A DNA stretch of 52,150 nucleotides from a virus, in the IMG/VR virus record IMGVR_UViG_3300037200_000348, positions 1 to 52,150 of that record. The stretch is one strand, 5' to 3'. A program made the position numbers and the translations under genes. This document shows positions 203 to 44,478 of the stretch, piece after piece. How positions within the stretch are numbered: position 1 is the stretch's first letter; each line of letters starts with the position of its first letter. Under the pieces are notes generated by a model. That model searched no databases. It was given only the letters and a program-made list of their open reading frames with translations, and had not been told where the DNA came from.

Positions 203-952
203 TCATCGCGCCTTCGCGCCCTCAAGCCACTTCCATATCTGATAAACGTGGCGAGCGTCGGCGAGCGCGTCGTGCGCATCGGCGTTTTTGATGCCGGTGA
301 TCGACGCGATTTCCGAGAGCGTCGGCGGCACGAAGACGCCCATGGCGCCCATGAACATCGCCTCGATATCAATGACGTGATAGTGGTATGGGACCTCGCG
401 GTACACTTTACGCAGAAACTGATGATCGAACGTCGGGACTGCACCGACGAGGTAGACCGAGGTCTTTCCGCCATCCGAGAGACGCAGGCAATCTTCGAAG
501 AAATTGTCGAGGGCTTCGCTTATCGGGACCGACCGCGGGCCTACGGCTATTGCGAGGTGTTCCCCATCCCCCCGACGGTCGCGACGAGCGTTCGTGTTGC
601 GCGCGGCCCAGAGGCTGGGGAAGCCATCATAGTCGACGTGATAGTTGCGCTCGCAAACTGCCACAGGACTGTTTGGGACTGGCGCCTCGAATAGCCACGC
701 CATCTGCGTGATGACGTCGCGGTCCGGGTCGAGACCCGTCGTTTCAAGGTCGAGGAACACGTGCCTGATGCGCGGCGGGTTCGCGTCGGTCGTCGGTATG
801 GGTGGACCGCCGCCGACTGCCCCCTGGATGACCTGCACGTACCCCGAAGTGGCGGTCGCCCCGCCTTCAAAGCTAACCTGCGTTCCGATGACGCTTCCAA
901 CGGTCGTTTCGATAATGAGAATCCCTTTATGAGCCAGGGTAGGGGTCGCCAC
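203..952 (-). CDS. DnaQ-like DEDDh 3'-5' exonuclease
   Basis: The protein carries the three exonuclease motifs of the DnaQ/RNase T superfamily: Exo I with D68 and E70 (FLDLETTGLD), Exo II with D176 (PTFDHQFL), and Exo III of the DEDDh type with H227 and D232 (HDALAD). Such enzymes remove nucleotides from 3' ends, for proofreading or DNA/RNA processing, using two metal ions. No DNA polymerase is seen in the window, so the partner may be the host polymerase. The GTG start at 952 overlaps the end of the upstream gene by 26 bases. It gives about 60 glycine- and valine-rich residues before the catalytic domain that are unusual for the family. The true start could lie closer to Exo I, as no strong ribosome binding site marks the GTG. 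Confidence 0.85.
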   Translation of the reverse strand: MATPTLAHKGILIIETTVGSVIGTQVSFEGGATATSGYVQVIQGAVGGGPPIPTTDANPPRIRHVFLDLETTGLDPDRDVITQMAWLFEAPVPNSPVAVCERNYHVDYDGFPSLWAARNTNARRDRRGDGEHLAIAVGPRSVPISEALDNFFEDCLRLSDGGKTSVYLVGAVPTFDHQFLRKVYREVPYHYHVIDIEAMFMGAMGVFVPPTLSEIASITGIKNADAHDALADARHVYQIWKWLEGAKAR

Positions 953-1166
953 CGAACTCGTAAGAGCCGATGGGCTTGTCGATCGCGAGCCGGTTGACTT
1001 TGCGCTCTAGGACCGCGATGCGCTTGCGCAGTGAGATATTCTCAGTCTCGACTGCGAGCCGCATGCCGCGCTCGCGACGTGCCTCCTCTTCGCAGTCCTT
1101 GACTCGCTTTACGAGGCCCTTTACGAATGTCTCTACGAGGGCGCCGTCCTGGTCGATGTTCGACAC
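927..1166 (-). CDS. Small predicted coiled-coil protein, leaderless
   Basis: A 79-residue protein with a charged helical middle rich in E, K and R (about residues 15-62) and heptad-like hydrophobic spacing, so probably a coiled coil; the tail is glycine/proline rich. No family is recognised. The GTG start at 1166 is 7 bases downstream of the -10 box TAGACT of a leftward promoter at 1174-1202. The message would therefore start at or next to the GTG and lack a ribosome binding site. It is first in a leftward operon with the DnaQ-like exonuclease, whose start overlaps this gene's 3' end. Confidence 0.65.
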   Translation of the reverse strand: MSNIDQDGALVETFVKGLVKRVKDCEEEARRERGMRLAVETENISLRKRIAVLERKVNRLAIDKPIGSYEFGGDPYPGS

Positions 1167-1173
1167 TGCGGAG

Positions 1174-1202
1174 AGTCTACCATTGCGAGCGCTTTTTGTA
1201 AA
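1174..1202 (-). promoter_or_regulatory. Leftward early promoter with GCTCGC spacer element
   Basis: On the minus strand TTTACA (1202-1197) and TAGACT (1179-1174) are separated by exactly 17 bases. The spacer contains GCTCGCA six bases after the -35, the same position as GCTCGCT in the rightward promoters at 1220, 15551 and 36608. It forms a divergent pair with the promoter at 1220 and drives the gene starting at 1166. Confidence 0.7.
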
Positions 1203-1219
1203 GAACCAACTCTAGTCGC

Positions 1220-1248
1220 TTGCTATTTCCTGCTCGCTGCATTATACT
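1220..1248 (+). promoter_or_regulatory. Rightward early promoter with GCTCGCT spacer element
   Basis: TTGCTA (1220-1225) and TATACT (1243-1248) are separated by 17 bases, and the spacer is TTTCCTGCTCGCTGCAT. The promoter at 36608 has nearly the same spacer and also shares the leader ACTGGTGGAGG just downstream. A strong GGAGGG ribosome binding site at 1255-1260 serves the ATG at 1269. The conserved spacer word is probably an operator. Confidence 0.8.
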
Positions 1249-1268
1249 GGTGGTGGAGGGAAAACGAC

Positions 1269-1637
1269 ATGGCCACCGCGATCGAGACGCCCCGGCTCTT
1301 CAACGAAGCGGTGTTCATGCCGCGGTTGCGGATGCCGAACCGGGAGATGCCGCTGCGGTACGGGCGGCACGCGCTCGAAGCCGCTCAAAACGATCGGTAC
1401 GGCAACCTGACGCAGTACCTGCCCGAGACGGTGAACCCGACGCTCTGCCAGGTGGTGGAAGCCGAGTTGACCGGCACGAAGCTCACGAAGCTCGTGCTCC
1501 GGAAGACGCTCGGAAACGGCCTCGACCTCGTGCTCGTGCTGACGCCGCAAGACGGCTTCGTACGGACCGTATGGGGACAACAAACGAACGACGCTCACGG
1601 GACACTGAACCGGAACCGGTACGCCACCACTCTCTGA
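1269..1637 (+). CDS. Hypothetical early protein
   Basis: First gene of a short rightward operon, 122 residues, with ATG 8 bases after GGAGGG. The N-terminal third is rich in Arg, Pro and Met (RLRMPNREMPLRYG). The middle, about residues 58-95, alternates hydrophobic and charged residues as in beta strands (TGTKLTKLVLRKTLGNGLDLVLVL). No catalytic or metal-binding motif is visible and I do not recognise it. Its early-type promoter suggests a function in takeover or regulation, but that is inference from position only. Confidence 0.6.
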   Translation: MATAIETPRLFNEAVFMPRLRMPNREMPLRYGRHALEAAQNDRYGNLTQYLPETVNPTLCQVVEAELTGTKLTKLVLRKTLGNGLDLVLVLTPQDGFVRTVWGQQTNDAHGTLNRNRYATTL

Positions 1638-4876: not shown

Positions 4877-7534
4877 CTATCCAACGTCGTAGCCTTTCTC
4901 GAACCAGGGCTTTTGGTCGGTCGCTTCGAGCCATAGGCTCTCGACGCCATCGAAGTACATCGCGACTGTTCCTGGGACGCCATGACGACACTTCGCGACG
5001 GCGGCCTCGGCTCGTGTTGGTGGGATGGGATTCCCGGCGTCGTCCACGACCTCCGGGTCGTTGCCGGGGTTCGGGCGCCACGGGAAGATGATCGTCGTCG
5101 CGTGGCCCTCCGTGTTGCCCCCGTCGCGGAGGTCAAACATCGTGGGGCGAGCAGCCTTCGCCCCGCGGTTGAGGTGGTAGACGACGTGCACGGGGCACGA
5201 GAGTTCATCCGCGAGCGAGAGAAGCTCCGCAAGGAGTCGATCGAGCGCGTTGTGCTTGCCACCGCTCTTCTCGGACGCCGTCGCTAAGTCGCTCACGAAG
5301 CCGATATGGTCGATCGCAATGCCGGAGAGCCCCCCGTGTTTTTGCGCGATGGCCCGGGAAGCGCGTTTAACGTCCGCCAGTGACCGCCGCGGATGCCGCG
5401 TGATAAACTCTATCGGAATCCCCTTGAGGGCCCTCTGGGCGTATTCTAGGGCCCGCCAATCCTCACTCGTGAGTCGGACGCCCTCGCGTATCTTGTTCAC
5501 CGGCACCCCGGCCCGCATCGAGAGGATGCGCTCGGCGGAATCTTCCTGGGTCATCTCCAGGCTGAAAAGCGCGAATGCCTTGGGGTTGTACGCGTGGGCC
5601 GTATACTCTGCGTAGTTGCCGAGCATGATCGAATTGTGAACAACGATGTCGTCTGCAACAAAATTGTGATGGCCTGGAACCTCTAGGTCGAAGGTCTCCA
5701 TCGGGCCAACGCTTTTAATCTCTTTGATTTCATCCCAAATTATATCTGGGCTAGCCAGCGCCGCTAACCACCGGTCTTTCAATACAGTCGCAATTGTCGC
5801 TAAGTGGTCCTGAGTAATGTCTCGATCGGGGTGAGATTTGCTGGCAAAGGCCGCGCGGCGATCAAGCTCGTCCAAACTTATTCCCCGTTGCGCGCACCGT
5901 CTTCGAATGGTGTCCCACACTTTGCGCCCCACGACGCGAAAATTTGTGTTGGAATTAGGCGAAGCGCGCCACGTCGAGAAACGCCTCGTTTTCTCGCCAA
6001 TCCATCCAATGGAAGACTGGTACGCCTGAATTGAAAGCGGGCTTGTTATCACAAGTCTCCATGCTTTTGAACCTTTGGTTGAAAAATCAGCCAAAATTCC
6101 AAAACGCAAAAAGGCGTGCTGCAAGTCACGCACAAGACGCTCGCTCGCCAAAGTAATCTCGATGATGGGGGCCATACCCTTGGAGCAATATATAGTCCCG
6201 TCGCAACTCATTAAAGCCCGCAAAAATTCTCGAAGCGCGACCGCGTCCCATTTCCAAACCTCGGCTGGTATCCACTTCTCTTTCGAGAGATGCCCCGCTA
6301 GCCCGAATCCGCGCAACCAGGACACTACTAGATTTTCCGATTGCCATCGACCGCCTCGACCGCCCCGCTCGGCAGGAAAATAGCCAAACTTCCCGTCGAA
6401 TCGCACGCTGAGCGATGGGAACTTGTCGGCGATTATTTGAGAGAAATCGGCCACTATCTCGGCGTCGGCATTAGTAAATCCGGCGTGGCTTCCACAAGCC
6501 TTACAACCGCGCGCCTCGCGGTGCGGACCGCTAATTGACGCCATGGAGCCGTCTCCGAAATAATAGCCGAGTAAGCGCGCTAACTGAGGGTCAGCCGCCT
6601 CCGAGCCGTGAACCGCCTTCGCAGACACCGCAATCCGGTCGCCACGACGCAAGGCGCGAAGCGGAGCCCACCCTTCCGTCGTCAAAAATGGATGTGCTTC
6701 GGTCGCGCAATTCTCGCGACCACTTCTTGTCCGTAGAGCATAGCACTCTTGAATCCCGCTCGGAATCCACGAGGCCACTTGTCGTGGCTCGATCTTGCCG
6801 CTATGCGACAGCGAAAGCGTTTTTTTGCGCTGCTCCTTGACGAAATCTCTAATCGTCAGGCGCTCGCCCGTTTCTGCGTCCGTGACCTTCGTATTTGCGG
6901 CCTGGCACTTCCCCATGCCCGGAGCCGCGCCCCACACGATCAATTCGCCGGGCTTGAAGCCGCCGGTAAGGCGGTCGAGGGTTTCCCATTGCGAGAGGTA
7001 TGGGCGCACGGAGGGCGAGCCGATGCGCGCCACGACGCTGTTGACGACCTCATCGAGCGAGGTGACCGTGATGGCGTTACTCGCGAGAGCGCTCGTGATT
7101 TCCCGGATGGCGTAGTCCTGGAGTTCGGCGGAGCTTTCGAAGTGCTCGTTGTAGGCCTTTTCGTAAAGCTCCCGGGCTACACGGATGATGGCCCGCGACC
7201 CCGCCTTGTCGGCAACGATACTTGCGTAATACTCAACACTCGACGCCGTAGGCACGATATCGAGTAGCGAATTGAGATAGGGGACGCCGCCCGCCTTTTC
7301 GAGCATCCCGGCGCTTCGTAGCCGCTCCGCGAGGGTGATCTTATCTATCGGCGCGTCGGCCTCGTAAAGCGCGAGGATATGGGTCCAAATAACCTCGTGA
7401 ATGTGCGCATAGAAGTCCGCCGCCTTCACGTGCGCAAGCGCGACCGGCAGCATCTCTCGCTCTAGGAGTACGGAACCGATGACTGCCATCTCTGCCTCCA
7501 GGTTCGACGGCGGAATCTTGTCGGCGGCGCTCAT
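4877..7534 (-). CDS. dnaB: Replicative DnaB-family helicase containing an intein
   Basis: An 885-residue precursor; removing the 425-residue intein leaves a 460-residue helicase of normal DnaB size. Residues about 10-110 are the DnaB N-terminal domain (NLEAEMAVIGSVLLE). The RecA-like motor starts near 180 with Walker A GAAPGMGK (202-209), which is completed by Ser635 after the intein. Walker B is GIAIDH, followed by HVVYHLNRG and a FDLRDGG motif. The hexamer unwinds DNA at the fork. The ATG overlaps the stop of the DUF1376 gene (ATGA), which suggests a coupled helicase plus loader or primosome pair. The stop is followed by about 100 bases without a gene before the methyltransferase. Confidence 0.95.
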   Translation of the reverse strand: MSAADKIPPSNLEAEMAVIGSVLLEREMLPVALAHVKAADFYAHIHEVIWTHILALYEADAPIDKITLAERLRSAGMLEKAGGVPYLNSLLDIVPTASSVEYYASIVADKAGSRAIIRVARELYEKAYNEHFESSAELQDYAIREITSALASNAITVTSLDEVVNSVVARIGSPSVRPYLSQWETLDRLTGGFKPGELIVWGAAPGMGKCQAANTKVTDAETGERLTIRDFVKEQRKKTLSLSHSGKIEPRQVASWIPSGIQECYALRTRSGRENCATEAHPFLTTEGWAPLRALRRGDRIAVSAKAVHGSEAADPQLARLLGYYFGDGSMASISGPHREARGCKACGSHAGFTNADAEIVADFSQIIADKFPSLSVRFDGKFGYFPAERGGRGGRWQSENLVVSWLRGFGLAGHLSKEKWIPAEVWKWDAVALREFLRALMSCDGTIYCSKGMAPIIEITLASERLVRDLQHAFLRFGILADFSTKGSKAWRLVITSPLSIQAYQSSIGWIGEKTRRFSTWRASPNSNTNFRVVGRKVWDTIRRRCAQRGISLDELDRRAAFASKSHPDRDITQDHLATIATVLKDRWLAALASPDIIWDEIKEIKSVGPMETFDLEVPGHHNFVADDIVVHNSIMLGNYAEYTAHAYNPKAFALFSLEMTQEDSAERILSMRAGVPVNKIREGVRLTSEDWRALEYAQRALKGIPIEFITRHPRRSLADVKRASRAIAQKHGGLSGIAIDHIGFVSDLATASEKSGGKHNALDRLLAELLSLADELSCPVHVVYHLNRGAKAARPTMFDLRDGGNTEGHATTIIFPWRPNPGNDPEVVDDAGNPIPPTRAEAAVAKCRHGVPGTVAMYFDGVESLWLEATDQKPWFEKGYDVG
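5633..6907 (-). mobile_element. DnaB intein with LAGLIDADG homing endonuclease
   Basis: Residues 210-634 of the helicase precursor form a full-size intein. It begins at Cys210 right after the Walker A lysine (block A CQAANTKV), and has block B around NCATEAHPF. Two LAGLIDADG motifs, LGYYFGDG (about 323-330) and FLRALMSCDG (about 437-446), mark the endonuclease. It ends with FVADDIVVHN, followed by extein Ser. Insertion between K and S of the P-loop is a well-known DnaB intein site. The DNA is visibly more AT-rich than its flanks (for example around 5700-5800 and 6060-6200), pointing to recent arrival. Splicing should be autocatalytic, as Cys1, the penultimate His, the terminal Asn and Ser+1 are all present. 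Confidence 0.95.
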
Positions 7535-10798: not shown

Positions 10799-11082
10799 CG
10801 CTCACCTCCGAGACGCCGCGCGGCTTCACGCAGTAAGCCTTCCGCCGAATGTTTCCCGTTGCAGTCGCTATGCACGTGCGGCAGTGCTGCCCGCTCCCTC
10901 GCCACCTCCAGCAACTTGTGCGCGAGAGCGGTGTCGGGATGCGCGGCAAGGCGCAGAGACTTCAGAATGATCGAACCCGCAGTCGTCGGGGAATCCGTGT
11001 ACGGGTAAGCTTGAAGTCGATCGGCAGATTCGCGCTCCTCGGCGCTGAGCACCGGGACGAGGTCGGGCGCGTCGGGATTCAT
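10795..11082 (-). CDS. Hypothetical small protein
   Basis: Ninety-five residues, ATG 11082 overlapping the previous TGA. Acidic N-terminus (LSAEERESADRLQAYPY), helical C-terminus with HVHSDCNGKHSAEGLL, where His and Cys could bind a metal. No family recognised. Its overlaps on both sides show it is translated as part of the train. Confidence 0.6.
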   Translation of the reverse strand: MNPDAPDLVPVLSAEERESADRLQAYPYTDSPTTAGSIILKSLRLAAHPDTALAHKLLEVARERAALPHVHSDCNGKHSAEGLLREAARRLGGER

Positions 11083-11804
11083 CCCGCGTTCACTCGTTCT
11101 TGCAGTGTGAGGATGAATTGCGCGGCCTCGCGCTCGCTAAGCTCTTCGCGCGGCATGGAGATAGCACGGCCGACCTGCGACATAGCAACTTTGAGCGTTG
11201 CGTTACGAACGCCGTTGCTGATGGTGCGGAGTTGCTCAAGCAGGCCCGTGATGAGCTTTGCCTGTAAGTCCGAGATGGTGCCGGGGGCGCCATTGAGGAC
11301 ACCGCGTTCCGTATCGGCGGGCTTCTCCGCCTCGCGCTTCTCTGCGGGAGGCTCGGCGACGCGCTCGGTCGGAACGCATAGCACCTTCTGAATTGGACCA
11401 TTGAATTTGAACGAAATGAGCCAAACGTAATCGTCTTTCTGCTCCTTCGTTTCGTCTCGCTCTTCGCCACGCGCACCGCGCGAATACGCGACGCACTCCG
11501 GCATCTTGCGCGCCTTGTTTTCCGGGAAGTGGCGGCGCTTCCAAACCTGCCCGAGGCGCTCGACGCACTGCTGCTCCGAATCGCCATCCTTGATAACGAA
11601 GTGCCGCGCGCCGATGAGGCGCCAGTCGAACTTGTCGGCCATCGCGAGCGGAAGCACCCAGCCGCCATCCGGCGGCTCTCCAGAGGCCCAGCCCTCGCCG
11701 CCCATCGTGCGCATGATGTCGTACGGCGTGTAGCCCGTGCCAACGTCGATCGAGATACACATGCCGATGCCGTTGACGAGGTGGAGCTTGCGGTCGATAC
11801 CCAC
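11079..11804 (-). CDS. Hypothetical replication-region protein
   Basis: A 241-residue protein. The first 110 residues are probably an alpha/beta domain (ISIDVGTGYTPYDIMRTMGG, then FDWRLIGARHFVIKDGDSEQ); a charged linker rich in E and K follows, then a helical C-terminus (ISDLQAKLITGLLEQLRTIS). The start is GTG at 11804, sharing its first base with the end of the upstream TAG. It sits second in the operon between the first gene and the small-protein train. The layout resembles phage recombination or ssDNA-annealing accessory proteins, but no diagnostic motif is visible, so I leave the function open. Confidence 0.6.
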   Translation of the reverse strand: MGIDRKLHLVNGIGMCISIDVGTGYTPYDIMRTMGGEGWASGEPPDGGWVLPLAMADKFDWRLIGARHFVIKDGDSEQQCVERLGQVWKRRHFPENKARKMPECVAYSRGARGEERDETKEQKDDYVWLISFKFNGPIQKVLCVPTERVAEPPAEKREAEKPADTERGVLNGAPGTISDLQAKLITGLLEQLRTISNGVRNATLKVAMSQVGRAISMPREELSEREAAQFILTLQERVNAG

Positions 11805-12474: not shown

Positions 12475-12530
12475 GGGCTAACTGCTCGCTGTCAAGGAGT
12501 CAGGAGTCGCGGGCAATAAACGGTCCATCC

Positions 12531-12779
12531 ATGGAAGAAGGCACGCGCCCGAAGAAGGCTCAAATACGCTGGCTCCCAGAGCACATTGCGTTCGTGGCCG
12601 CTTCATATCCGACGCATACCGTTACCGAGCTTTCCGTCGCGTTCTACAAAAAATTCAAGCTCTACGTGAGCCCATCGGCCATCGGATTCGTGCTTTGGAA
12701 GCGCGGGGTTTGGAAGCGCGGGGTTCAGAAAATGAAAAAGACGCCCAAGGGACCAAAGAAGCGGGCCGCGCAGCGCTGA
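12531..12779 (+). CDS. Helix-turn-helix-like DNA-binding protein, possibly frame-interrupted
   Basis: Eighty-two residues from ATG 12531. RWLPEHIAFVAASYPTHTV, then ELSVAFYKKFKLYVSPSAIG resembles the N-terminal DNA-binding helices seen on some phage HNH endonucleases. A direct duplication gives WKRGVWKRGV, and the tail is highly basic. The frame ends at TGA 12777-12779. A +1 step there opens a second good frame (ETLATKAKDSAEAQRLDVR and onward) that ends at TAG 12897 and has no start of its own. No ribosome binding site or GCTCGC-type promoter is seen directly upstream; the gene is divergent from the replication operon. Confidence 0.5.
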   Translation: MEEGTRPKKAQIRWLPEHIAFVAASYPTHTVTELSVAFYKKFKLYVSPSAIGFVLWKRGVWKRGVQKMKKTPKGPKKRAAQR

Positions 12780-14007: not shown

Positions 14008-14624
14008 GCGTCTCTATAATTCGTCAAAACGCCCGAAATGCCAACGTAATGCAGCCGGAATTTTTACGAAAACTACGTGCTGGAATCGAGGCCAACGACG
14101 GGCGTTACCCGCCCTTAGATGTGCGCGAGTTGGGAACTAAGCCTGAGACATACGAACTTCTCGACGGCCACCAACGCTTTTCAGTGCTCAAAGATATGGG
14201 CCACACCGAGGTCGAGGTCACAAACTGGGGAAAAGTCTCCGACGTCGATGCTGATAGGCTCCTCGTCTCCCTCAACCGGCTCCGTGGAGAGGACGACGAG
14301 TACAAGCGCTCGTCGATCATCGCGAGCCTCATGAAGAACTTCGCGTCGATGAGCGACCTCGCGAAAGTCATCCCCGAAGACATGAACGGCGTCAACAAGA
14401 TGCTGCTCCGCTACGAAGGCGGCATCGAACTCCCGCCAACCGGCAAGCAGACGGAGCCGGACCCAACTAAGCCCGTCCGACTCACCTTCGTGCTCTACTC
14501 GGACGCCGCTTCGATCGTCGAGCAATCCATTTCCCGCGTCGTCGCTGAGGCGTCGCTGGAAGGCGACAAAAACGCGCGGAACCGCGCGTTGGAACTCATC
14601 TGCGCTGACTACTTGGCGGGCTAG
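13995..14624 (+). CDS. ParB-like nuclease-domain protein
   Basis: A 209-residue protein with start ATG 13995, six bases after GGAGGA. Residues about 3-75 match the ParB/sulfiredoxin fold: VSIIRQNARNAN, RYPPLDVREL and the signature YELLDGHQRFSVLKDMG. In plasmid and chromosome ParB this fold binds CTP; in phage homologues it is often a nuclease or a methylation-linked regulator. The C-terminal half (YSDAASIVEQSISRVV) is helical. There is no ParA nearby, so partition is unlikely. It closes the rightward operon and overlaps the convergent gene at 14621 by four bases. Confidence 0.75.
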   Translation: MGKVSVSIIRQNARNANVMQPEFLRKLRAGIEANDGRYPPLDVRELGTKPETYELLDGHQRFSVLKDMGHTEVEVTNWGKVSDVDADRLLVSLNRLRGEDDEYKRSSIIASLMKNFASMSDLAKVIPEDMNGVNKMLLRYEGGIELPPTGKQTEPDPTKPVRLTFVLYSDAASIVEQSISRVVAEASLEGDKNARNRALELICADYLAG

Positions 14625-14863
14625 GCTCGCGCTTCGGCCTTCGTGATACTCGCGAGGGCAGCGTCGACTGGAAGGCCCTTAGCACGCAGCCGCTTTGCCT
14701 CTTGCTCCAGGAGCCGCTCGAAGAAAACGCGCTGCGGCTCTTGTGTCACGACGGTGCACGCCTGCAACAAGCGCCGCCGGTGACGACGAAGATGAAATCC
14801 CTGGGATACTAACATTTCGTCATAGGGCAATTTTTTGCGCCCCGGCGTTTTAGGGGAGTTCAA
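14621..14863 (-). CDS. Small basic protein
   Basis: Eighty residues from TTG 14863, seven bases after AAAGG. Very basic centre (HLRRHRRRLLQA) and helical C-terminus (RVFFERLLEQEAKRLRAKG), so a nucleic-acid-binding or regulatory role is possible. It is driven by its own promoter at 14902-14931, which carries the GCTCGCT word in reverse. It is convergent with the ParB-like gene. Confidence 0.55.
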   Translation of the reverse strand: MNSPKTPGRKKLPYDEMLVSQGFHLRRHRRRLLQACTVVTQEPQRVFFERLLEQEAKRLRAKGLPVDAALASITKAEARA

Positions 14864-15083: not shown

Positions 15084-15518
15084 TCACCGCAGCTTCCCGT
15101 GCTCGCGCCTAATGAGTCTATCGACAGATTCTCCGGCCGTCATTCCAAGTCGTCGGCCGAGTTCGCGCGCCATGCGTATGGCCTCGGGGTCGAGCTTGAA
15201 AGGCGGCACGCGGCGTACGGACAATCGACGCGGAATTTTCTCGCCAGCCTCCTGAAACTTGCGATAGCGAGCGAAGCTCGTGGCAAGCCATGAAAACACC
15301 GTTGGCCCCGCGGAGGCGCGCACGTGCATATCGAGACTCTCTAGCGTGCGGCTCCGCCGCGGCCACGTCGGGTCGCCCTGGACGTGCGCGGCCATCTCGG
15401 CAACCGACGGCGCGGGCCGGGGCTGCTTTGCGGCCCACAGAAGCCACTGCGTATAGGATGGGTTCACGAGGTGTTGACTCACGAACGCAACGGTACCAAA
15501 AAGGGCCGTTCCGCGCAA
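15084..15518 (-). CDS. Hypothetical protein with possible DNA-binding C-terminus
   Basis: The frame starts at TTG 15518, or at an internal GTG about 12 codons later. An aromatic N-terminus (NPSYTQWLLWAAKQPRP) is followed by a middle with HVRASAGPTVFSWLATSF and a C-terminus KLDPEAIRMARELGRRLGM plus AGESVDRLIRREHG that looks like a small helical DNA-binding or ribbon-helix-helix-type unit. It is divergent from the operon at 15595 and shares the control region with tandem GCTCGCT sites. It is a candidate regulator, but only by position. Confidence 0.5.
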   Translation of the reverse strand: MRGTALFGTVAFVSQHLVNPSYTQWLLWAAKQPRPAPSVAEMAAHVQGDPTWPRRSRTLESLDMHVRASAGPTVFSWLATSFARYRKFQEAGEKIPRRLSVRRVPPFKLDPEAIRMARELGRRLGMTAGESVDRLIRREHGKLR

Positions 15519-15524: not shown

Positions 15525-15579
15525 TTGACATTTTTCGCTCGCTAACCCTATTGACATTTCCTGCTCGCTAATATAGAAT
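15525..15579 (+). promoter_or_regulatory. Rightward promoter with tandem operator-like repeats
   Basis: The active promoter is TTGACA (15551-15556), 17 bases, TAGAAT (15574-15579). The -35, GCTCGCT and following AA are repeated 26 bases upstream as TTGACA (15525-15530) with TTTTTCGCTCGCTAA, but there no good -10 follows. Two copies in tandem look like paired operators. GGAGG at 15586-15590 serves the ATG at 15595. Confidence 0.8.
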
Positions 15580-15594
15580 CAAGTTGGAGGTTAT

Positions 15595-15954
15595 ATGATT
15601 CGAACCAAAGAGGGCAAGATACTCACGGGCGAGACCCGCTCTGCCGATGCCAAATTTTTCTACGTCAGCATTGTGAGCGGCGAGAACTACGGTCTCTTGT
15701 ACGGTCCGCTCGCGAGCTACGAAGAGGCCGATGCGAAAGTCGCGCTTGTGCGCCAAGTCGCGCAAAATACGAACCCGTCGCAGGCAGCGTTTGCGGCGTT
15801 CGGCGTGGCGGGAACGCCGGACGCAAGCCGCACCGGCATCTTGAATGCAGCGGTCGACGTGCTCGCCATCGACGTGCCGAAGGCCGCCCCCAAGCGACGC
15901 GTGCGCGGCCCGAAGCGTATCGAGGCCTACACGCACGACGCGGTGGGCCACTGA
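15595..15954 (+). CDS. Hypothetical early protein
   Basis: A 119-residue protein with a strong GGAGG four bases before the ATG. The N-terminal half is a beta-like fold with alternating charge (KEGKILTGETRSADAKFFYV), then SYEEADAKVALVRQVAQNT as a helix, then a basic tail (KAAPKRRVRGPKRIE). No recognised domain. First gene of a five-unit rightward operon. The stop TGA overlaps the next ATG. Confidence 0.6.
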   Translation: MIRTKEGKILTGETRSADAKFFYVSIVSGENYGLLYGPLASYEEADAKVALVRQVAQNTNPSQAAFAAFGVAGTPDASRTGILNAAVDVLAIDVPKAAPKRRVRGPKRIEAYTHDAVGH

Positions 15955-16798: not shown

Positions 16799-17269
16799 TT
16801 ACAGCGAATATAGGGCTTGTCGGTATTCACGCGGGTCCTCGGCGAACGGAATTTCGTCGTATATGTCGGCGTTTAGCGAATCGCTACTCTGGCGACTCGA
16901 CGCGCCTTCGTAGCCTGTCGCGCGCTCGCCGCCGCCATCGCGGTCTCTCTTAGATTCGAGAATCTGCATCTCGCTCGCGACTATTTCGACCGCCTTGCGC
17001 TTGTTGCCCTCGCGGTCGTCATAGTTACGAATAGTCAGTCTCCCTGAGATGAGGGTCGCCATGCCCTTTGAGAGATACTGGCTACAAATTTCGCCCAGCC
17101 GTTCCCATGCTACGACGTCGATGAACATCGTCTCGTCGCCGCTTTTGCTTTTGCGATTGACGGCTACGCAAAACTTAGCGACCAGCTTGGCTCCGCCATC
17201 CGTGTAGCGGACCTCCACGTCGCGCGTGAGGTTACCGACGACGGTGATGTGATTATATGACCCTGCCAT
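16799..17269 (-). CDS. ssb: Single-stranded DNA-binding protein
   Basis: A 156-residue protein with start ATG 17269, six bases after GGAG. The OB fold occupies about residues 1-108: YNHITVVGNLTRDVEVRYTD, LVAKFCVAVNRKSKSGDET, FIDVVAWERLGEICSQYLSKG, and LISGRLTIRNYDDREGN. Bacterial SSB coats ssDNA and recruits partners through a C-terminal acidic tip ending in IPF at the very end. Here the tip DEIPF is present but followed by about 14 more residues (AEDPREYRQALYSL), so the usual free carboxylate next to Phe is absent. It is downstream of an HNH gene that overlaps its start by 17 bases. Confidence 0.9.
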   Translation of the reverse strand: MAGSYNHITVVGNLTRDVEVRYTDGGAKLVAKFCVAVNRKSKSGDETMFIDVVAWERLGEICSQYLSKGMATLISGRLTIRNYDDREGNKRKAVEIVASEMQILESKRDRDGGGERATGYEGASSRQSSDSLNADIYDEIPFAEDPREYRQALYSL

Positions 17270-18995: not shown

Positions 18996-20363
18996 CTATG
19001 CGCCCGGCACAACCGATGCGATTTTTGATGTATCGAGGCCACCGTACGCGTTCTGCGGGAGCCACGCGCTCCAGAGGCAGTTGATGCCTGCGGCGGTGCT
19101 CCCGTTTACGTGCAGTACGACGGTGTGCGGGTTTCCATCGTCGGGAATCGTCCCAGACCACGAGAATGTGCCGGAGGGACTCGACTGCGACGCGATGTAC
19201 GTACCGTCTAGGGAGACCGCGACGTAACCGCCTAGCTGGTTGCACCCGCCGCCGCCAGAGAGCGAGGGGACCGTCGAGCCGATTGGCTGGGCCCCGGACC
19301 CCGCCTTGACCGTGACGTTGAAGACGCCCTCGACTGTGGAGTTCGGTGCACCCGTCCCGACGAGGAGAGAACCGAGCGTCGAGCCGAGCGGGACGACCGA
19401 AGACTGGCTCGTAGGCATAAGCGAGTTCGAGCTTGCGCTGTAGTTGTAGCGAAAACGATACTGCACGAGCCCCGCTGCGTACGCGCCGGTTTTCGCAATC
19501 GAATAGTCGCGCGTTGGCCCGCTACCCGTGATGACCACGGACCCGTCAGCCGACGTCGCCCCGCTGAGCCCCGTGACGGGTCCGGTAGCGCCGTTGTAGG
19601 TCGACACGCCTGTGACGGGCCCGGTAGCGCCGTTGTAGGTCGACACGCCTGTGACGGCCCCCGAGGCGCCGTTGTAGGTCGACACGCCGGTCACGGCGCC
19701 TGTAGCGCCATTGTAAGAGGTCACGCCCGCTGGGATAGCGCTAATGGCCGCGGAGATGAGGCCAGAGACGGTCGAGAGGATGCCGGGGATTGCCGCCGTG
19801 ATGAGCGCGTTGACGAGCGAGGAGAACGTCGGGAGATTGATCGTGATGTTCGCGTTCGTGATGACGTTGCTCGTCGGCGTCTGCACGGTCGCGATGAGCG
19901 TGTACCCCGTGGGGACCGTTGCGCCGGGCCCCGCGAGGCCAAGGATGCTCGCGCCCTGGATGAGCTTGTATGCAGTGACCGAGCTAATCGTTCGGTCGGA
20001 ATTGCGAACCTGCGTCGTGAACGGGTCGCCTTGAACTTCGAGCGGCTGGCCGACGATGATATCGGTGCGCGGCGAGCTTCCGGTGTTACTCGGGAAGCTG
20101 ACGCCGACGGTGCCCATCTCGTTGACGACGCGACGTCCGAGTACGAACTGCTGCCCGAGTCCGCCGACGGTGACGTTGAGGCCGCCCGCTGCTGTGACTT
20201 GCAGGGGCGCATTGCCGCCCTGCAAGCTGGGCGCTCCGAGGAGAATGTCGGCAAGCGAACCCGCGAGCCAATGCATCGTCTCGCCTTCTTCGAGAAGCTC
20301 CGCTGAGGTAATGAGTTGGCCTGTTATCCACTGCATGAGGTGGTTCACGATCGAAATTGCCAT
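18996..20363 (-). CDS. Tail fibre protein with VNG-type repeats
   Basis: A 455-residue protein. The N-terminal ~220 residues (EEGETMHWLAGSLADILLG and onward) are likely the baseplate-attachment part. Four tandem 13-residue repeats (VSTYNGATGPVTG) follow, of the kind found in phage fibres and side-tail-fibre shafts, then a beta-rich C-terminus (QYRFRYNYSASSNSLMPTSQ to the end) that probably binds the receptor. Tyr/Gly/Asn-rich composition fits a trimeric shaft. Start ATG 20363 follows AAGGG. It is placed after the gpI-like baseplate gene, the usual fibre position. Receptor unknown. Confidence 0.8.
   Translation of the reverse strand: MAISIVNHLMQWITGQLITSAELLEEGETMHWLAGSLADILLGAPSLQGGNAPLQVTAAGGLNVTVGGLGQQFVLGRRVVNEMGTVGVSFPSNTGSSPRTDIIVGQPLEVQGDPFTTQVRNSDRTISSVTAYKLIQGASILGLAGPGATVPTGYTLIATVQTPTSNVITNANITINLPTFSSLVNALITAAIPGILSTVSGLISAAISAIPAGVTSYNGATGAVTGVSTYNGASGAVTGVSTYNGATGPVTGVSTYNGATGPVTGLSGATSADGSVVITGSGPTRDYSIAKTGAYAAGLVQYRFRYNYSASSNSLMPTSQSSVVPLGSTLGSLLVGTGAPNSTVEGVFNVTVKAGSGAQPIGSTVPSLSGGGGCNQLGGYVAVSLDGTYIASQSSPSGTFSWSGTIPDDGNPHTVVLHVNGSTAAGINCLWSAWLPQNAYGGLDTSKIASVVPGA
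19570..19727. repeat. Four 39-bp tandem repeats in the tail fibre gene
   Basis: Near-identical 39-base units encode GVSTYNGATGPVT variants. Unit identity is highest between the two middle copies, suggesting recent duplication. Copy-number change would alter shaft length in frame. Confidence 0.9.
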
Positions 20364-32216: not shown

Positions 32217-33817
32217 TAGTTGCCGTTCACTGTTCCGCCGATGCTAACCGGCACTTGGAAGGGCTCGAATGTTTGGTCGAGACCCAAGTGATTGATGGGG
32301 AGAACAGGGTTCGCGCCGTACGCGACGATGAAGTCGTTGCCGGTCGTGCCGACGGGCGTGATCGAGATGGAGGCCTGACTGAAGCTCACTATCCAGTTGT
32401 CGTTGAGCGCCTGCTGGATGAGGTCGTAGACGACGGTGAGCGCGTACACGAGACTCATGGGAGTCCCGCCGGTACCGATGACCTTCGGATTGTTCGATTC
32501 AAGCGCGCCCTTGATATTCGCCTGAAGCGCGTCGGAGCACCGTTGCACGGAGACCTCTGCGAAGTACCACGGGTTGCCGCTGGCGTCGTTGGGCTGCGTG
32601 GTAACCGATTGCACGATGCGCACGGAGCCGAGTCCGTTGTAGTTCACGCGCTCGAAGACGACGAGGCCGCCCGCAACCGCGAGGTCCATGTCGCCCGTTG
32701 TGCGCAACACTTGATAGTCGACGCTCGCGACGGTCGCCGGGTATTCGTACGTCAGCGGCGATGACGGGCCATTCGGTCCCGTAGCGCCGATGAGCGCGAG
32801 AAGCCCGGCATACACCCATGCGCCATCGACCAGCGTCGATTGGCCGGTGGCGACATTGAGCGCGAGCACTTGCTGCGCGCACATAGAAGAGCGCCGCGAA
32901 TTGAGTGCGGCTGCCGCTGCCGTTCCCGATGCGACGACCGCAGCCGAGTTCTGTACCTTCGTTTGGGTCGCGCTCGCGCCCGAGACCTGGCACTGATGCA
33001 CCCATGAGCGAAGATAGCCGAGCGTCGCGACTTGCTGCGCCTGACCGTCCGCATAGGCCTGTGAGGGCCCGTCGTACGCGCCGACGAGGTGCCCGATATC
33101 GAAGGGAACGTCGATGAGCGAGTCGATCGCTTGTTGGTAGTCGGAGAAGGCGAGCGTCTGCGTTCCGCCGCCGGTGCCGCCGGAGAGCGTCACGAAGCCC
33201 GACGTAATCGTCAGCGCCGTACTGCCGTTAAACCCGTTCGGAACGAAGAGCGTGAACAATGGCTGATAGCCAGTACCAGCAGCCGGAGTCATGAGCGAGT
33301 CTGCCTGCATGACCGTGATGAGGTTGTTGATGTTCGCGATGTTGTCGTACTTGGTGCCGATGCCGCCGATGTAGTTGACGTTCCCGTTCGAATCTACGTA
33401 CCGGAAGGTAACGGCGGAATTGGTCGTTCCCGCGGTCACCTTGTAGGCGAACTGATTCGTGTACGACCCAGCATCACCCGCGGTCAGGGTGCCTTTGCCC
33501 GGAGACGTGCAAGCGATGGTTCCCGACGCCGGAGTCTTTGTTCCAGCGGTGACCGCGACGAATCCCGAAGCGCCTCCCAAGGAAGCCGCCGTCTGGAGCG
33601 CGGTGAGGAGCGGGCCGTTTCGAAGAATACGCTGCGCGACCGTGATGTCGGTGAACCGGTACGCGGCGCCGCTCCCGAGGCCGCCATCCGACGCCCCGAC
33701 CATACAAATCGTGCCGAACGGAAGAAGCTGCAGGACGCGATTCGCGCTCACGGTCGATCGCAGCAAGAATCCCGGCGCGATGATGCTCGCGCCGTTGAAG
33801 GTAAAGACGTCAGCCAT
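32216..33817 (-). CDS. Contractile tail sheath protein
   Basis: A 533-residue protein of typical sheath size. N-terminal strand and loop (PGFLLRSTVSANRVLQLLPF), a central variable beta domain (about 120-250), then the conserved C-terminal part, with SWVHQCQVSGASATQTKVQN, DYQVLRTTGDMDLAVAGG and NGLGSVRIVQSVTTQPND, and a last strand FEPFQVPVSIGGTVNGN that in sheaths donates a beta strand to the neighbouring subunit. Its presence makes the phage a myovirus. Confidence 0.88.
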   Translation of the reverse strand: MADVFTFNGASIIAPGFLLRSTVSANRVLQLLPFGTICMVGASDGGLGSGAAYRFTDITVAQRILRNGPLLTALQTAASLGGASGFVAVTAGTKTPASGTIACTSPGKGTLTAGDAGSYTNQFAYKVTAGTTNSAVTFRYVDSNGNVNYIGGIGTKYDNIANINNLITVMQADSLMTPAAGTGYQPLFTLFVPNGFNGSTALTITSGFVTLSGGTGGGTQTLAFSDYQQAIDSLIDVPFDIGHLVGAYDGPSQAYADGQAQQVATLGYLRSWVHQCQVSGASATQTKVQNSAAVVASGTAAAAALNSRRSSMCAQQVLALNVATGQSTLVDGAWVYAGLLALIGATGPNGPSSPLTYEYPATVASVDYQVLRTTGDMDLAVAGGLVVFERVNYNGLGSVRIVQSVTTQPNDASGNPWYFAEVSVQRCSDALQANIKGALESNNPKVIGTGGTPMSLVYALTVVYDLIQQALNDNWIVSFSQASISITPVGTTGNDFIVAYGANPVLPINHLGLDQTFEPFQVPVSIGGTVNGN

Positions 33818-34130
33818 CGTTCTCTCCCGTTAGCTCAGCGAGCTTCGCCTTGAACTCGGCTTCCGATCGCAAATCGTTGTCGTGATGCGTGATCTTCATG
33901 TGAACGCGCAGGGCATTGGCCAAGGGAAAGCTGCCGCCCGGAAGGCTGTGCGAGAACTCCTTGAACGACATGCCGGACACGCTCTGGCTTTGGGCCTCCG
34001 CGGACGCCGGTTCGTCCGGGGCGGTGTACTGCTCTGAGGACGCCGGTTCGTCCGGGGCGGTGTACTGCTCTGAGGACGCCGGTTCGTCCGGGGCGGTGTA
34101 CTGCTCTGACTCATCGGCCACGGATTCCAA
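33810..34130 (-). CDS. Small protein with three identical 12-residue repeats
   Basis: A 106-residue protein from TTG 34130, six bases after GGGGAG. The N-terminal third is SEQYTAPDEPAS three times, an acidic disordered segment from a 36-bp DNA repeat; the C-terminal half (FKEFSHSLPGGSFPLANALR, RSEAEFKAKLAELTGEN) is helical. It overlaps the sheath start by eight bases. No family; perhaps a sheath-associated chaperone or linker. Confidence 0.65.
   Translation of the reverse strand: MESVADESEQYTAPDEPASSEQYTAPDEPASSEQYTAPDEPASAEAQSQSVSGMSFKEFSHSLPGGSFPLANALRVHMKITHHDNDLRSEAEFKAKLAELTGENDG
34003..34110. repeat. Three perfect 36-bp tandem repeats
   Basis: Units start at 34003, 34039 and 34075 and are identical over almost their full length. 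They encode SEQYTAPDEPAS. No spacers lie between them, so this is not a CRISPR array. Confidence 0.95.
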
Positions 34131-36607: not shown

Positions 36608-36636
36608 TTGCTATTTACTGCTCGCTGATATATAAT
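36608..36636 (+). promoter_or_regulatory. Early-type promoter of the inverted methyltransferase cassette
   Basis: TTGCTA (36608-36613), 17 bases including CTGCTCGCT, and a consensus TATAAT (36631-36636). Nearly the same as the promoter at 1220, including the downstream leader ACTGGTGGAGG. GGAGG at 36643-36647 serves ATG 36658. On the other strand nothing clear is seen in 36524-36607. Confidence 0.8.
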
Positions 36637-36657
36637 ACTGGTGGAGGAAAACTCAAG

Positions 36658-36885
36658 ATGGCAAAGACTGCAAAGGAATGGACCCGCGATGAGTACATCG
36701 CCATGCAAACGGCGAATGTCATGCGCGAGGAGCCCGGTATCACCGAAGCTGCCGCAGCGAAGGTCGCGGACCTTCAGTATCGGACGGGGTTTGCGCACCG
36801 TGGCCTCCTGAACCCGGCGACGGGTGAGGTCGAGGACCTACGTGTCATCATCGCGGAGATGCAAGCGACTCGTGAAGCGCGTTAG
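36658..36885 (+). CDS. Hypothetical small early protein
   Basis: Seventy-five residues with a clear GGAGG and promoter. Helical (KTAKEWTRDEYIAMQTANVM, then GITEAAAAKVADLQYRTGFA), ending in EAR. The WT-x-x-EYI and helical pattern could be DNA-binding, but no family is recognised. It is co-transcribed with the methyltransferase six bases downstream and may regulate or modulate it. Confidence 0.6.
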   Translation: MAKTAKEWTRDEYIAMQTANVMREEPGITEAAAAKVADLQYRTGFAHRGLLNPATGEVEDLRVIIAEMQATREAR

Positions 36886-36891: not shown

Positions 36892-39696
36892 ATGAGGTAT
36901 CTCTCCGTCTGTTCGGGAATCGAAGCAGCAACTGTTGCATGGGGTTCTCTCGGATGGCAGCCCGTCGCGTTTGCCGAGATCGACCCGTTCGCTTGCGCGG
37001 TCCTCGCGCACCACTATCCCGAGGTCCCGAACCTCGGCGACTTTACAAAGATTGGACCCGAAGACGTTGGAGCAATCGACCTTCTTGTTGGCGGAACACC
37101 GTGCTTTGCGTCCGGAACGCTCGTCACGCTCGATCGCGGGTTGGTGCCCATCGAAGAGGTGCGCGTAGGTGACCGCGCCCTGACGCACGAGGGTACGTTC
37201 GAGCGCGTCTCGGCCGTCGGGAGCAAGTCGGCACCGACCGTGCGCGTGCGCGGGCAATCCGGCGACGTCACGACGACCGCCGACCACCGCTTCTGGTCGT
37301 CCAGCACGATGTCGCGTTCGACGCGGCGCGGCGGCGTGGCCGCGCGCGAGACAACCCGCAGCGAACCTGGTTGGACGGCCGCGAAGGACCTCGTCGGCGC
37401 GCACGTCGCGACCCCAACGGTGGTCCCGATGCTTCCCGTCCCGCCCGTGTCCGCCCTCGGACGCGAACGCGAAGGCCCGGCGATCTCGGAGCAGTTTATG
37501 TGGTGCGCGGGGGCGTGGCTAGGTGACGGATGGACGCGCGTATGGGAGGGTGGCCGCAGAGGCGCCGTCGTCGTGTGCGCCGCGCGCGGACCGCAGGCCC
37601 GGGAACTCGAACGCAACATGCGCGACGTGTTCGGGAGCGTCACCCTGACGCAGGAACGCACGACGGAGCGCCTGGCGGCGTATTCGCTCGCGACGGTGCG
37701 CTGGCTACGGGAGAACTTCGGGAGCGGCGCGGCGGGCAAGACCGTTCCGACGTGGTTGCTTGGAGCGCCCGAGGGATTGCGTCGCGCGTTCCTCGCGGGC
37801 TACCTTTTCGCCGACGGGAGCACCATGCCCAACGGCCGCCGATGCACGACCGTCTCGCCGCGCGTGGCCCTTGGGATCGCGATGCTGGCCCACACCCTGG
37901 GATTTTCTACAAGCCGCTACGAGACGCGCGTCGATCCGACGACCGTCATCGAGGGGCGGACCGTCACACAGCGCCCCTGGTGGCAGGTTTCCATCTACGA
38001 CCGCGCGCGTTCGTCCTGGACGGACGGCCGCCACCGCTTCGGCCTTTGCCGTAGCGTCGAACCCACAGGGAGGACCGAGACCGTCCATGACCTCACCGTC
38101 GAACGATCCAACTCTTATGTTGCTGCCGGGCTTGTCGTCCACAACTGCCAAGACTTCTCCGTTGCCGGACTGCGAGCCGGACTTGCGGGCGATCGAGGAC
38201 AACTCGCCATTGAGTTCGCTCGACTTGCTGCGCGTTTACGTCCCCGCTGGCTTATCTGGGAAAATGTCCCCGGTGTTTTGTCCGCAGACAAAGGAGGGGC
38301 CTTTGGAATCTTCCTCGGGGCGCTGGCAGAATGCGGGTATGGGTTCGCCTACAGAGTTTTGGACGCTCAAAACTTCGGAGTCCCACAGCGCCGCCGTCGC
38401 GTGTTCGTTGTCGGACATCTTGGAGAATGGCGACGTGCCGCAGCGGTACTTTTTGAGCGCGAAAGCCTGTCGTGGAATACTCCGCCGCGCAAAAAAGCGC
38501 GGAAAGACATTGCCGGAACTCTTGGAGCGCGCACTTCGGCAGGTGGCGGATTCGGAACCGACTTTGACTTAGACGGCGTCCTCGTCGAGTCGTACAGCCC
38601 TGGCTCGTTCGGCACGTACAGCGAGGGCATAAAAGCCCTGCGGGCGGGAAGCACGGGTGCGGGCAAAGATGCCTTGCTCGTCGCGCATACGTTGCGCGGC
38701 GAGGGTCATGACGCAAGCGAAGACGGCACGGGGCGCGGCGTTCCGCTAACGATCTCATTTGGCGCACAAGCCGACTTGTCGCCTACTCTGCGCGCAATGT
38801 CTCACCGAGACTCGCACCAGAACGCAGGCGGGCAAATTACGGTTCCGTTCTCACAGAACTCGCGCGACGAGATTCGCATGGTGGGCGGAGACGGCGGTGT
38901 CGTCGGAGCGTTGTCGGCCGAAACCGGCATGGTGGCCTTTACGTGTAAGCAAGATGGCACCGACGCAGGCGCAGTATCGCCAACGTTGCGTTCGATGAAT
39001 CACGCGGACAGTCATGCAAATGGCGGGGGGCAAGTCGCCATTACCGTTCCGCTTTCTGGAGTGCGGCGATTGACGCCGCGCGAATGTACTAGGTTGCAGG
39101 GATTCCCGGACGATTACCTTACGATGCGGTATGCCGATGCCGAGGAAGCCCACACCGCTCAAATATTGCACGAATTGTGGAACGCGGCTGGAGCGATCGC
39201 GCGAGAAGGATGGCGACCTGGAGTCGTTGCAGCACTTCTCACGCCGGAAATATTGCTCGCGGGCGTGTATGGCGGATGGGTTTCGTGGAAGCTGGCGAGA
39301 CGATGTGCTGCCGCACGAAGGACGTTACAGGGCGCGGAGCCTTGGCCCGAAGGGTTCGTGTTCGCGTTGCGGGACGGAGAAGAACGTCGATCGTCACCAT
39401 ACCGACGAGAATCCTTTGAACAATGCGCCCGAGAACTTGGTCGACCTCTGTCGTCGGTGCCACCTGGCCGAGCATCGTGTTCCGAGATTCTGCGAAGAAG
39501 CGGGTTGTGGGCGGAAGCACAGGCGCTATGGCCTCTGCGATATGCACTCGCAACGCCTTCGCAGATCGAAAAAGGACGTATCGACGTAGCCGACGGACTG
39601 AAGTACCGCGCGCTCGGCAACAGCATGGCGGTCCCCGTCATGCGCTGGATTGGCGAGCGAATCGCAATGGTTGATGCGATATTTAGTCGCAACTAA
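36892..39696 (+). CDS. DNA cytosine-C5 methyltransferase with an intein and a nested HNH gene
   Basis: A 934-residue open frame. Motif I is SVCSGIEAATVAW at the start; motif IV GGTP|CQDFSVAG is split by an intein (residues 71-418), so the catalytic Cys is residue 419. Motif VI is ENVPG (457-461), motif VIII QRRRRVFVVG (499-508), a target-recognition region follows (about 510-710, with the pair SPTLRAMSHRDSH / SPTLRSMNHADSH), then RECTRLQGFPDDY, and motif X RALGNSMAVPVMRW near 905-920. Between the last two, about 140 residues correspond to a complete HNH gene read in the +1 frame. No restriction partner is near. The ATG has only a weak AAGG. Activity needs intein splicing and tolerance of the loop. 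Confidence 0.9.
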   Translation: MRYLSVCSGIEAATVAWGSLGWQPVAFAEIDPFACAVLAHHYPEVPNLGDFTKIGPEDVGAIDLLVGGTPCFASGTLVTLDRGLVPIEEVRVGDRALTHEGTFERVSAVGSKSAPTVRVRGQSGDVTTTADHRFWSSSTMSRSTRRGGVAARETTRSEPGWTAAKDLVGAHVATPTVVPMLPVPPVSALGREREGPAISEQFMWCAGAWLGDGWTRVWEGGRRGAVVVCAARGPQARELERNMRDVFGSVTLTQERTTERLAAYSLATVRWLRENFGSGAAGKTVPTWLLGAPEGLRRAFLAGYLFADGSTMPNGRRCTTVSPRVALGIAMLAHTLGFSTSRYETRVDPTTVIEGRTVTQRPWWQVSIYDRARSSWTDGRHRFGLCRSVEPTGRTETVHDLTVERSNSYVAAGLVVHNCQDFSVAGLRAGLAGDRGQLAIEFARLAARLRPRWLIWENVPGVLSADKGGAFGIFLGALAECGYGFAYRVLDAQNFGVPQRRRRVFVVGHLGEWRRAAAVLFERESLSWNTPPRKKARKDIAGTLGARTSAGGGFGTDFDLDGVLVESYSPGSFGTYSEGIKALRAGSTGAGKDALLVAHTLRGEGHDASEDGTGRGVPLTISFGAQADLSPTLRAMSHRDSHQNAGGQITVPFSQNSRDEIRMVGGDGGVVGALSAETGMVAFTCKQDGTDAGAVSPTLRSMNHADSHANGGGQVAITVPLSGVRRLTPRECTRLQGFPDDYLTMRYADAEEAHTAQILHELWNAAGAIAREGWRPGVVAALLTPEILLAGVYGGWVSWKLARRCAAARRTLQGAEPWPEGFVFALRDGEERRSSPYRRESFEQCARELGRPLSSVPPGRASCSEILRRSGLWAEAQALWPLRYALATPSQIEKGRIDVADGLKYRALGNSMAVPVMRWIGERIAMVDAIFSRN
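37102..38145 (+). mobile_element. Methyltransferase intein with LAGLIDADG endonuclease
   Basis: A 348-residue intein. Block A starts CFASGTLVTLDRGLVPIEEV; block B includes VTTTADHRFWS; the endonuclease motifs are CAGAWLGDG and FLAGYLFADGS; the C-terminal blocks are TVHDLTV and GLVVHN. Extein +1 is the catalytic Cys of the host enzyme. Cys1, the penultimate His and terminal Asn are intact, so splicing should work. Unlike the DnaB intein its DNA is as GC-rich as the flanks, which suggests longer residence or a GC-rich donor. Confidence 0.95.
39131..39589 (+). CDS. HNH endonuclease nested in the methyltransferase gene
   Basis: A complete 152-residue protein in the +1 frame relative to the methyltransferase, from ATG 39131 (or ATG 39137). 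The N-terminus KPTPLKYCTNCGTRLER, with HFSRRKYCSRACMADGF, is the zinc element common in free-standing phage HNH proteins, followed by CSRCGTEKNVDRHHTDENPL, NAPENLVDLCRRCHLAEH (the HNH nuclease with two zinc pairs), then CEEAGCGRKHRRYGLCDMHS. It fills the gap between the GFPDDY and ALGNSM blocks of the host gene. No ribosome binding site is obvious, so expression may depend on host-gene translation. Confidence 0.85.
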   Translation: MPMPRKPTPLKYCTNCGTRLERSREKDGDLESLQHFSRRKYCSRACMADGFRGSWRDDVLPHEGRYRARSLGPKGSCSRCGTEKNVDRHHTDENPLNNAPENLVDLCRRCHLAEHRVPRFCEEAGCGRKHRRYGLCDMHSQRLRRSKKDVST

Positions 39697-41803: not shown

Positions 41804-41813
41804 TGTGAACGGC

Positions 41814-41842
41814 ATTGTACCACTCTTTGACTTTCTTTACAA
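41814..41842 (-). promoter_or_regulatory. Promoter of the GIY-YIG gene at 41803
   Basis: Minus-strand TTGTAA (41842-41837), 17 bases, TACAAT (41819-41814) with an extended TGG before it. The -10 ends ten bases before ATG 41803, leaving a 5' leader of only about four bases. A 6-bp inverted repeat CTCGTA-AAA-TACGAG spans the end of the capsid gene at 41874-41888. Confidence 0.65.
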
Positions 41843-43009: not shown

Positions 43010-43111
43010 GTTACTGGGCTCCCCTCACAGGCGGTTTTTTCGGCATCCGTCCCCTTACGCGCCAACGCAGTGGGATGGACTTCTAGCCGATGTTTTTGGA
43101 AAAGCGGCTCG

Positions 43112-43879: not shown

Positions 43880-43890
43880 GTTTAGTGCTC

Positions 43891-44478
43891 CTAGAGGTCG
43901 ATGGCCTTGCGGCCGACGAGTTGGTACGCTTTGCGCCCGGTCTGGCTAAATATGAGGGCGTTCCCGCGCTTCATGACGGCGGTGATGATGCATGACGCGT
44001 TCGCGGGGGTGTCTACGAGGGACAGTTCATCAAGCTCGTAGTCCAGAATCCGGTGAACCTTTTTTCCGGTCGCCTTATTGAGTTCCATTCGGCTGCGAAG
44101 AACGCGTCCACCGATTGAGTAACCCCGTAAGGTTCCGTCGAGGACCTTCTCCCATGTCGGCTGGGCCCCTTTCGATACATGGGTGCCGACGAGGATTTTC
44201 CTTTCGCCCGGGATTCCGAGAACTTGAATCGCATGGCCCGCGGCGGTGTCGCCGTGCATCTCGCGCACGTTTCCAGCCCAGCGCTTGAAGGCTTTAATCG
44301 TGCCTTCGAAGTCCACGATATCGTTTTGCGAATCGGGTTTGTCTTCTTCTGTTTGCCCAACACCCCATACGATGCGCCGCTCCCGGTCGATCTTCGAGAA
44401 TGGCATATAGACGCGACCCGCGCGCATGCCTGCGGCGAGCGATGGTAGCTGATATTGACCAAAGGCAATGTCATGCAC
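43891..44478 (-). CDS. Prohead serine protease, XkdF-like
   Basis: A 195-residue protein. Catalytic-type motifs appear in order: NVREMHGD with His75, TLRGYSIGGRV with Ser121, and ELSLVDTPANASC with Asp156. The QNDIVDFEGTIKAFKRWAGN segment is characteristic of XkdF-type head maturation proteases, which cut scaffold and capsid during maturation. It overlaps the upstream gene by eight bases. Confidence 0.85.
   Translation of the reverse strand: MHDIAFGQYQLPSLAAGMRAGRVYMPFSKIDRERRIVWGVGQTEEDKPDSQNDIVDFEGTIKAFKRWAGNVREMHGDTAAGHAIQVLGIPGERKILVGTHVSKGAQPTWEKVLDGTLRGYSIGGRVLRSRMELNKATGKKVHRILDYELDELSLVDTPANASCIITAVMKRGNALIFSQTGRKAYQLVGRKAIDL

Follow-up and report, generated by a model that had tools for sequence, protein, structure and literature searches.

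The spacer that separates the -35 and -10 hexamers of a bacterial promoter is usually seen as a matter of length rather than of sequence, and its bases are normally free to vary. The nearest working analogue of the promoters described here is the T4 middle promoter, which works by sigma appropriation and whose MotA box, (a/t)(a/t)(a/t)TGCTTtA, has its centre at -30, over the -35 region, and keeps a distance of 12 ± 1 bp to the -10 element (PMC2988021). Repeated sites are also found in phage P1, with 22 dispersed asymmetric 17-bp C1 operators (PMC8546580), in L5-type mycobacteriophages, where the sites follow the direction of transcription (PMC9283540), and in cluster K mycobacteriophages, where SAS/ESAS motifs recur just 5' of many gene starts, the ESAS adding, ahead of the SAS, imperfect 17-bp inverted repeats whose spacer varies (PMC3203893).

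In a virus record of 52,150 bases with a G+C content of about 61%, analysed whole and hereafter called the window, we find the repeated unit TTTnCnGCTCGCT-N4-TAnnnT-N5-TGGAG. Like the T4 middle promoters, it joins a host-type -10 element to a phage-specific box at a near-fixed distance, is scattered over the genome and has a replaceable -35. It is not a member of that class, since position, sequence and distance all differ: TTTnCnGCTCGCT lies inside the spacer, at -29 to -17 and 4 bp from the -10, often with the -35 still present, and it lacks the centre at -30, the 12 ± 1 bp interval and the TGCTT of MotA boxes. Scanning of the proteins from this incomplete genome brought up neither MotA nor AsiA. 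The P1 C1 operators are likewise dispersed and asymmetric, at about 17 bp, and the box may be their functional analogue; their sequence, however, is ATTGCTCTAATAAATTT, which differs from the box, the box is held in one register relative to the -10, and nothing resembling C1 was recognised among the proteins. L5-type operators and stoperators share the asymmetry and the orientation with transcription, whereas the present box sits where genes start, in register with the promoter elements, and a repressor of the L5 kind was not recognised. In contrast to SAS/ESAS, the unit is asymmetric, constant in spacing over six copies and contains a -10 element. A limited literature search returned no closer known case.

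Results

Genome context

The window encodes a contractile-tailed phage, with a recognisable tail sheath, baseplate, portal and DnaB-like helicase. A search with the portal protein found an IMG/VR contig, L010, that is 98.9% identical to window 42978-52150 and extends 2,782 bases past the window end. Since the phage thus runs beyond position 52150, and no terminase was recognised among the genes scanned, the record is probably incomplete.

Several other genes are worth recording. A DdrB-like single-stranded DNA-binding protein (11079-11804, minus strand) has plasmid relatives exclusively in Deinococcota (11/11), which makes a Deinococcota/Deinococcus lineage plausible as host of the phage; a phage-type SSB is encoded separately at 16799-17269. 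The C5 cytosine methyltransferase at 36892-39696 (plus strand) carries an in-frame intein, with Hint, LAGLIDADG and splicing-domain matches (the last under Pfam's cut-off) all ahead of residue 418, at which the methylase match picks up again. The two halves of the DnaB-like helicase (4877-7534, minus strand) match at residues ~1-209 and ~650-875, and the interval of ~440 residues is possibly a second intein. A homing endonuclease gene lies amid the head genes (40727-41815, minus strand). Tandem repeats occur inside a 455-aa gene (19531-19725, 39-bp period) and inside the 103-aa gene at 33810-34121 (33996-34109, 36-bp period). The L010 extension holds a ParB-like gene (L010 1139-1891) and a 355-aa gene; the window has a second ParB-like protein at 14121-14624 (plus strand, PHROG 723), so that the phage may carry two.

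Anatomy of the promoter unit

The first-pass annotation of this DNA had described a divergent promoter pair with GCTCGC six bases past the -35 in both 17-base spacers, and direct reading bears this out: 1220-1248 on the plus strand is TTGCTA TTTCCT GCTCGC TGCAT TATACT, and 1202-1174 on the minus strand is TTTACA AAAAGC GCTCGC AATGG TAGACT. The same arrangement had been said to recur at 15551 and 36608. The rightward design does so, as TTGACA TTTCCT GCTCGC TAATA TAGAAT, which matches 11/12 consensus bases, and as TTGCTA TTTACT GCTCGC TGATA TATAAT; at neither site is there a complete leftward partner. The repeated element is longer than the word first noticed, comprising a 13-bp asymmetric box at -29 to -17, exactly 4 bp, a TAnnnT -10 element, exactly 5 bp and TGGAG(G) (Table 1).

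Table 1. Promoter units, related sites and the genes that they precede in the window.
Feature	Position	Strand	Description
Full promoter unit 1	1220..1259	+	TTGCTA-TTTCCTGCTCGCT-GCAT-TATACT-GGTGG-TGGAGG; 51.2 bits; heads operon from 1269
Spacer box of unit 1	1226..1238	+	TTTCCTGCTCGCT; spans -29 to -17
Full promoter unit 2	15551..15590	+	TTGACA-TTTCCTGCTCGCT-AATA-TAGAAT-CAAGT-TGGAGG; 54.5 bits; heads operon from 15595
Full promoter unit 3	36608..36647	+	TTGCTA-TTTACTGCTCGCT-GATA-TATAAT-ACTGG-TGGAGG; 54.4 bits; heads operon from 36658
Tandem extra box	15525..15545	+	TTGACATTTTTCGCTCGCTAA; 26 bp 5' of unit 2; without -10 or TGGAGG
Partial copy	12482..12490	+	CTGCTCGCT; 49 nt 5' of gene 12531-12779; no -35, -10 or TGGAGG in register
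First gene under unit 1	1269..1637	+	122 aa; PHROG 24108, no assigned function
First gene under unit 2	15595..15954	+	119 aa; PHROG 20105, no assigned function
First gene under unit 3	36658..36885	+	75 aa, no family; followed by the intein-bearing C5 cytosine methyltransferase
Predicted leftward promoter	1174..1202	-	TTTACA-N17-TAGACT; GCTCGC at same offset; likely a weak class member
Gene served by predicted leftward promoter	927..1166	-	79 aa, no family, no Shine-Dalgarno sequence

Contig L010 holds a further copy, L010:65, heading a gene cut by the contig end. A profile made from this copy and the three in the window found two more in the L010 extension, outside the window: L010:527, facing leftward, and L010:540, facing rightward, which form a true head-to-head pair before a 62-aa and an 88-aa gene. 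Full copies thus number six, three in the window and three in L010, and occupy both strands. Between the head-to-head promoters there is a perfect inverted repeat, ACTTAT-N5-ATAAGT (L010 ~529-545).

Across the six copies, 11 of the 13 box columns are invariant and a twelfth is kept in 5/6, giving TTT.C.GCTCGCT, four free positions, TA...T, five mostly free positions and TGGAG. As in sigma70-type promoters, whose hexamers lie 16-18 bp apart 5' of genes, the -35 and -10 are separated by 17 bp in all copies, and the -10 is TAnnnT in 6/6. The -35, by comparison, matches TTGACA at 6, 5, 4, 4, 2 and 2 positions, and the two copies with 2/6 (CAACCA and TATAAG) retain the box. An extended -10, TGn, is present in L010:65 and L010:527; one of the two -35-poor copies therefore has this element, and only L010:540 is truly without both. 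Over the 40-column profile the six copies score 47-55 bits, against at most 22.6 for any other site in the window or the further loci retrieved. The association also holds when read from its parts: the box accompanies every TA...T-N6-GGAGG site in the window (3/3) and in the L010 extension (2/2), and GGAG lies at the fixed distance from all six GCTCGCT-N4-TA...T sites.

Two further sites carry part of the unit. The tandem box at 15525 retains 18 of the 21 bases of -35 plus box and none of the next five, and ranks directly after the three full units over the first 20 profile columns (19.5 bits, the next site scoring 12.5). The copy at 12482 has either lost the rest of the unit or never had it. 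An inverted GCGAGC occurs 30-35 bp 5' of the -35 in 4/6 copies; since two of these four belong to a partner promoter, we do not build upon it.

With transcription assumed to begin 7 nt past the -10, +1 is predicted to fall on the first G of GGAGG, the Shine-Dalgarno sequence (1255, 15586 and 36643 in the window); the predicted leaders would then be 14, 9 and 15 nt long for units 1, 2 and 3, and the mRNAs would begin with GGAGG. As for the genes that follow, the first gene under unit 1 has relatives in Streptomyces phages and in Xanthomonas phage XacN1.

The predicted leftward promoter at 1202 has GCTCGC, its offset and the -10 register in common with the class, and lacks TTTnC, the following T and TGGAG. 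It is likely to be real, though a weak member. Because its -10 lies 7 nt 5' of the GTG of the gene at 927-1166, it is probably leaderless, an arrangement that is reported to be common in Deinococcus-Thermus (PMC12340547).

Frequency of the box and occurrence elsewhere

The first-pass annotation had made its proposal depend on the word not being equally frequent away from promoters. The bare hexamer GCTCGC fails here, with an uninformative 135 occurrences in the window against 103 expected, as does the proposed TTGNNA-N6-GCTCGC pattern, which with two mismatches allowed gives 80 matches in the window against 83 expected. The full box behaves otherwise, and the right unit is thus the longer one: TTTNNNGCTCGCTNNNNTANNNTNNNNNNGGAG occurs 3 times in the window against 0.00 expected (100 shuffles), while CTGCTCGCT has 4 occurrences against 0.76, each of them on the plus strand and 34-49 nt 5' of the first gene in a rightward cluster (1269, 12531, 15595 and 36658). 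An independent repeat search arrived at these three copies too, each of 40 bases, at 1220, 15551 and 36608. Within 120 nt 5' of the 61 called gene starts there are five sigma70-like sites, four of which carry GCTCGC precisely at offset 6, the leftward site at 1202 among them; by our own arithmetic from the hexamer frequency, the chance of this is ~0.0013 per promoter. Exact TTGNNA-N6-GCTCGC matches at 13225 and 32711 were set aside, being without a -10 and within called genes. A leftward TTGACA at 14931 was not counted either; it has GCGAGC, the reverse complement, and lies at the end of an ORF.

In the collections scanned, the unit was not met outside this phage. Four IMG/VR pattern scans, from which records very near the window's own may be left out, found the full unit in no other virus. 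A 15-base scan of IMG/VR gave 62 stretches, and only L010 had two matches. From the other IMG/VR scans, a match in L007 was taken as chance for being a lone one in AT-rich DNA, and another in L011 for lying inside a 406-codon ORF. Relatives sought through the first gene, the portal and the sheath proteins came down to L010. The TTGnnA form, TTGNNATTTNCTGCTCGCTNNNNTANNNT, had no match in ~85,000 prokaryotic species genomes, a set outside which the true host may fall, and three Deinococcus plasmids gave background matches only; the same promoter was thus not found among these bacterial sequences.

Discussion

The spacer is the best-kept part of these promoters, and probably something besides ordinary polymerase recognition reads it. 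The first-pass annotation had argued from the conserved spacer to a phage regulator or a phage-modified polymerase. That something reads the spacer is strengthened by six 13-bp boxes held rigidly with the -10, by the extra box at 15525 and by boxes that persist in copies whose -35 is gone; the reader may be of either kind. The proteins at 15084 and 14621, put forward as candidates, gained no support, nor was either ruled against: that at 15084-15518 has no Pfam match above cut-off and an uninterpretable AlphaFold fold (pLDDT 48), and that at 14621-14863 has no PHROG or Pfam match.

Our preferred reading, to which we give slightly less than an even chance, is that the copies form one promoter class on both strands, whose spacer box would be read in fixed register with the polymerase by a dedicated factor, most likely phage-encoded. 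A polymerase with a housekeeping-type sigma would melt the -10, while the factor, seated on the polymerase, would touch the box in a constant register and thereby switch scattered small operons together. In line with this notion, the register between box and -10 is fixed in 6/6 copies, which favours a box read together with the polymerase; simple repression does not require it. Counting against a dedicated factor, a recognisable -35 (4-6 of 6) is kept in 4/6 copies and only L010:540 is without both this element and an extended -10, so that unaided recognition is possible; the box without a -10 at 15525 would suit an operator as well. Among the proteins scanned from this incomplete record, none was recognised as a sigma factor, an RNA polymerase or a classical HTH regulator.

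One main rival, which we hold to be rather unlikely, takes the box for the operator of a phage repressor, asymmetric and dispersed, that overlies ordinary sigma70 promoters in the manner of P1 C1 or of the repressor of mycobacteriophage L5. The box is indeed asymmetric, scattered and always oriented with transcription, the dispersed P1 operators and the direction-following L5-type sites are precedents (PMC8546580, PMC9283540), the tandem second box at 15525 lies without a -10 beside a divergent gene, and the ParB-like proteins are a hint that the phage may exist as a plasmid-prophage. Repression would, however, need no exact register with the -10 or with TGGAG, and decay of the -35 in two copies would weaken promoters that are under repression; moreover, neither repressor nor integrase was recognised in the proteins scanned, and apart from the tandem box no full box was found away from a promoter. 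A similarly low probability goes to the other main rival, in which the spacer and the initial transcribed sequence make a very strong early promoter for the unaided host polymerase. The conservation of T4 early promoters, which also reaches beyond the hexamers (PMC2988021), is explained in this way, and the near-consensus hexamers at 15551 agree with it. Against an unaided polymerase stand the want of matches to the TTGnnA form in the ~85,000 genomes, the mere background in the three Deinococcus plasmids, and a -35 that drifts where the spacer does not. To our knowledge, known effects of the spacer fall far short of a near-invariant stretch of 13 bp, which we also count against it.

If a promoter cassette had lately been duplicated in the phage, with the box left unconstrained, the likeness of the regions 5' of 1220 and 36608 would be accounted for. 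We regard this as very improbable, since the differences among copies sit in the N4/N5 gaps and the -35 and not in the box, the genes that start at 1269 and 36658 are unrelated, and copies lie on both strands; a box kept amid varying gaps and -35 elements, together with unrelated downstream genes, indicates constraint. An RNA leader element, such as a riboswitch or thermometer controlling the Shine-Dalgarno sequence, is hardly to be expected: in some copies TTTCC might base-pair with GGAAA or GGGAA, but there is no shared fold, 5/6 copies fold no better than shuffles, the window has no Rfam match, and the predicted transcription start falls downstream of the box.

Returning to a dedicated reader of the spacer, we tentatively propose, as a possibility short of probable, a new kind of control, in which a phage factor would read a 13-bp box wholly between -35 and -10, its register fixed with the -10 and with a Shine-Dalgarno sequence at +1, the signals for polymerase, factor and ribosome forming one rigid 40-bp unit. 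The predicted ribosome-binding site at the first transcribed base is an easily testable feature of this unit. The unit would, in addition, serve as a marker for co-regulated phage genes, most of them without known function, and with promoter conservation strongest in the spacer, the phage offers a clean case for finding the reader of such a sequence.
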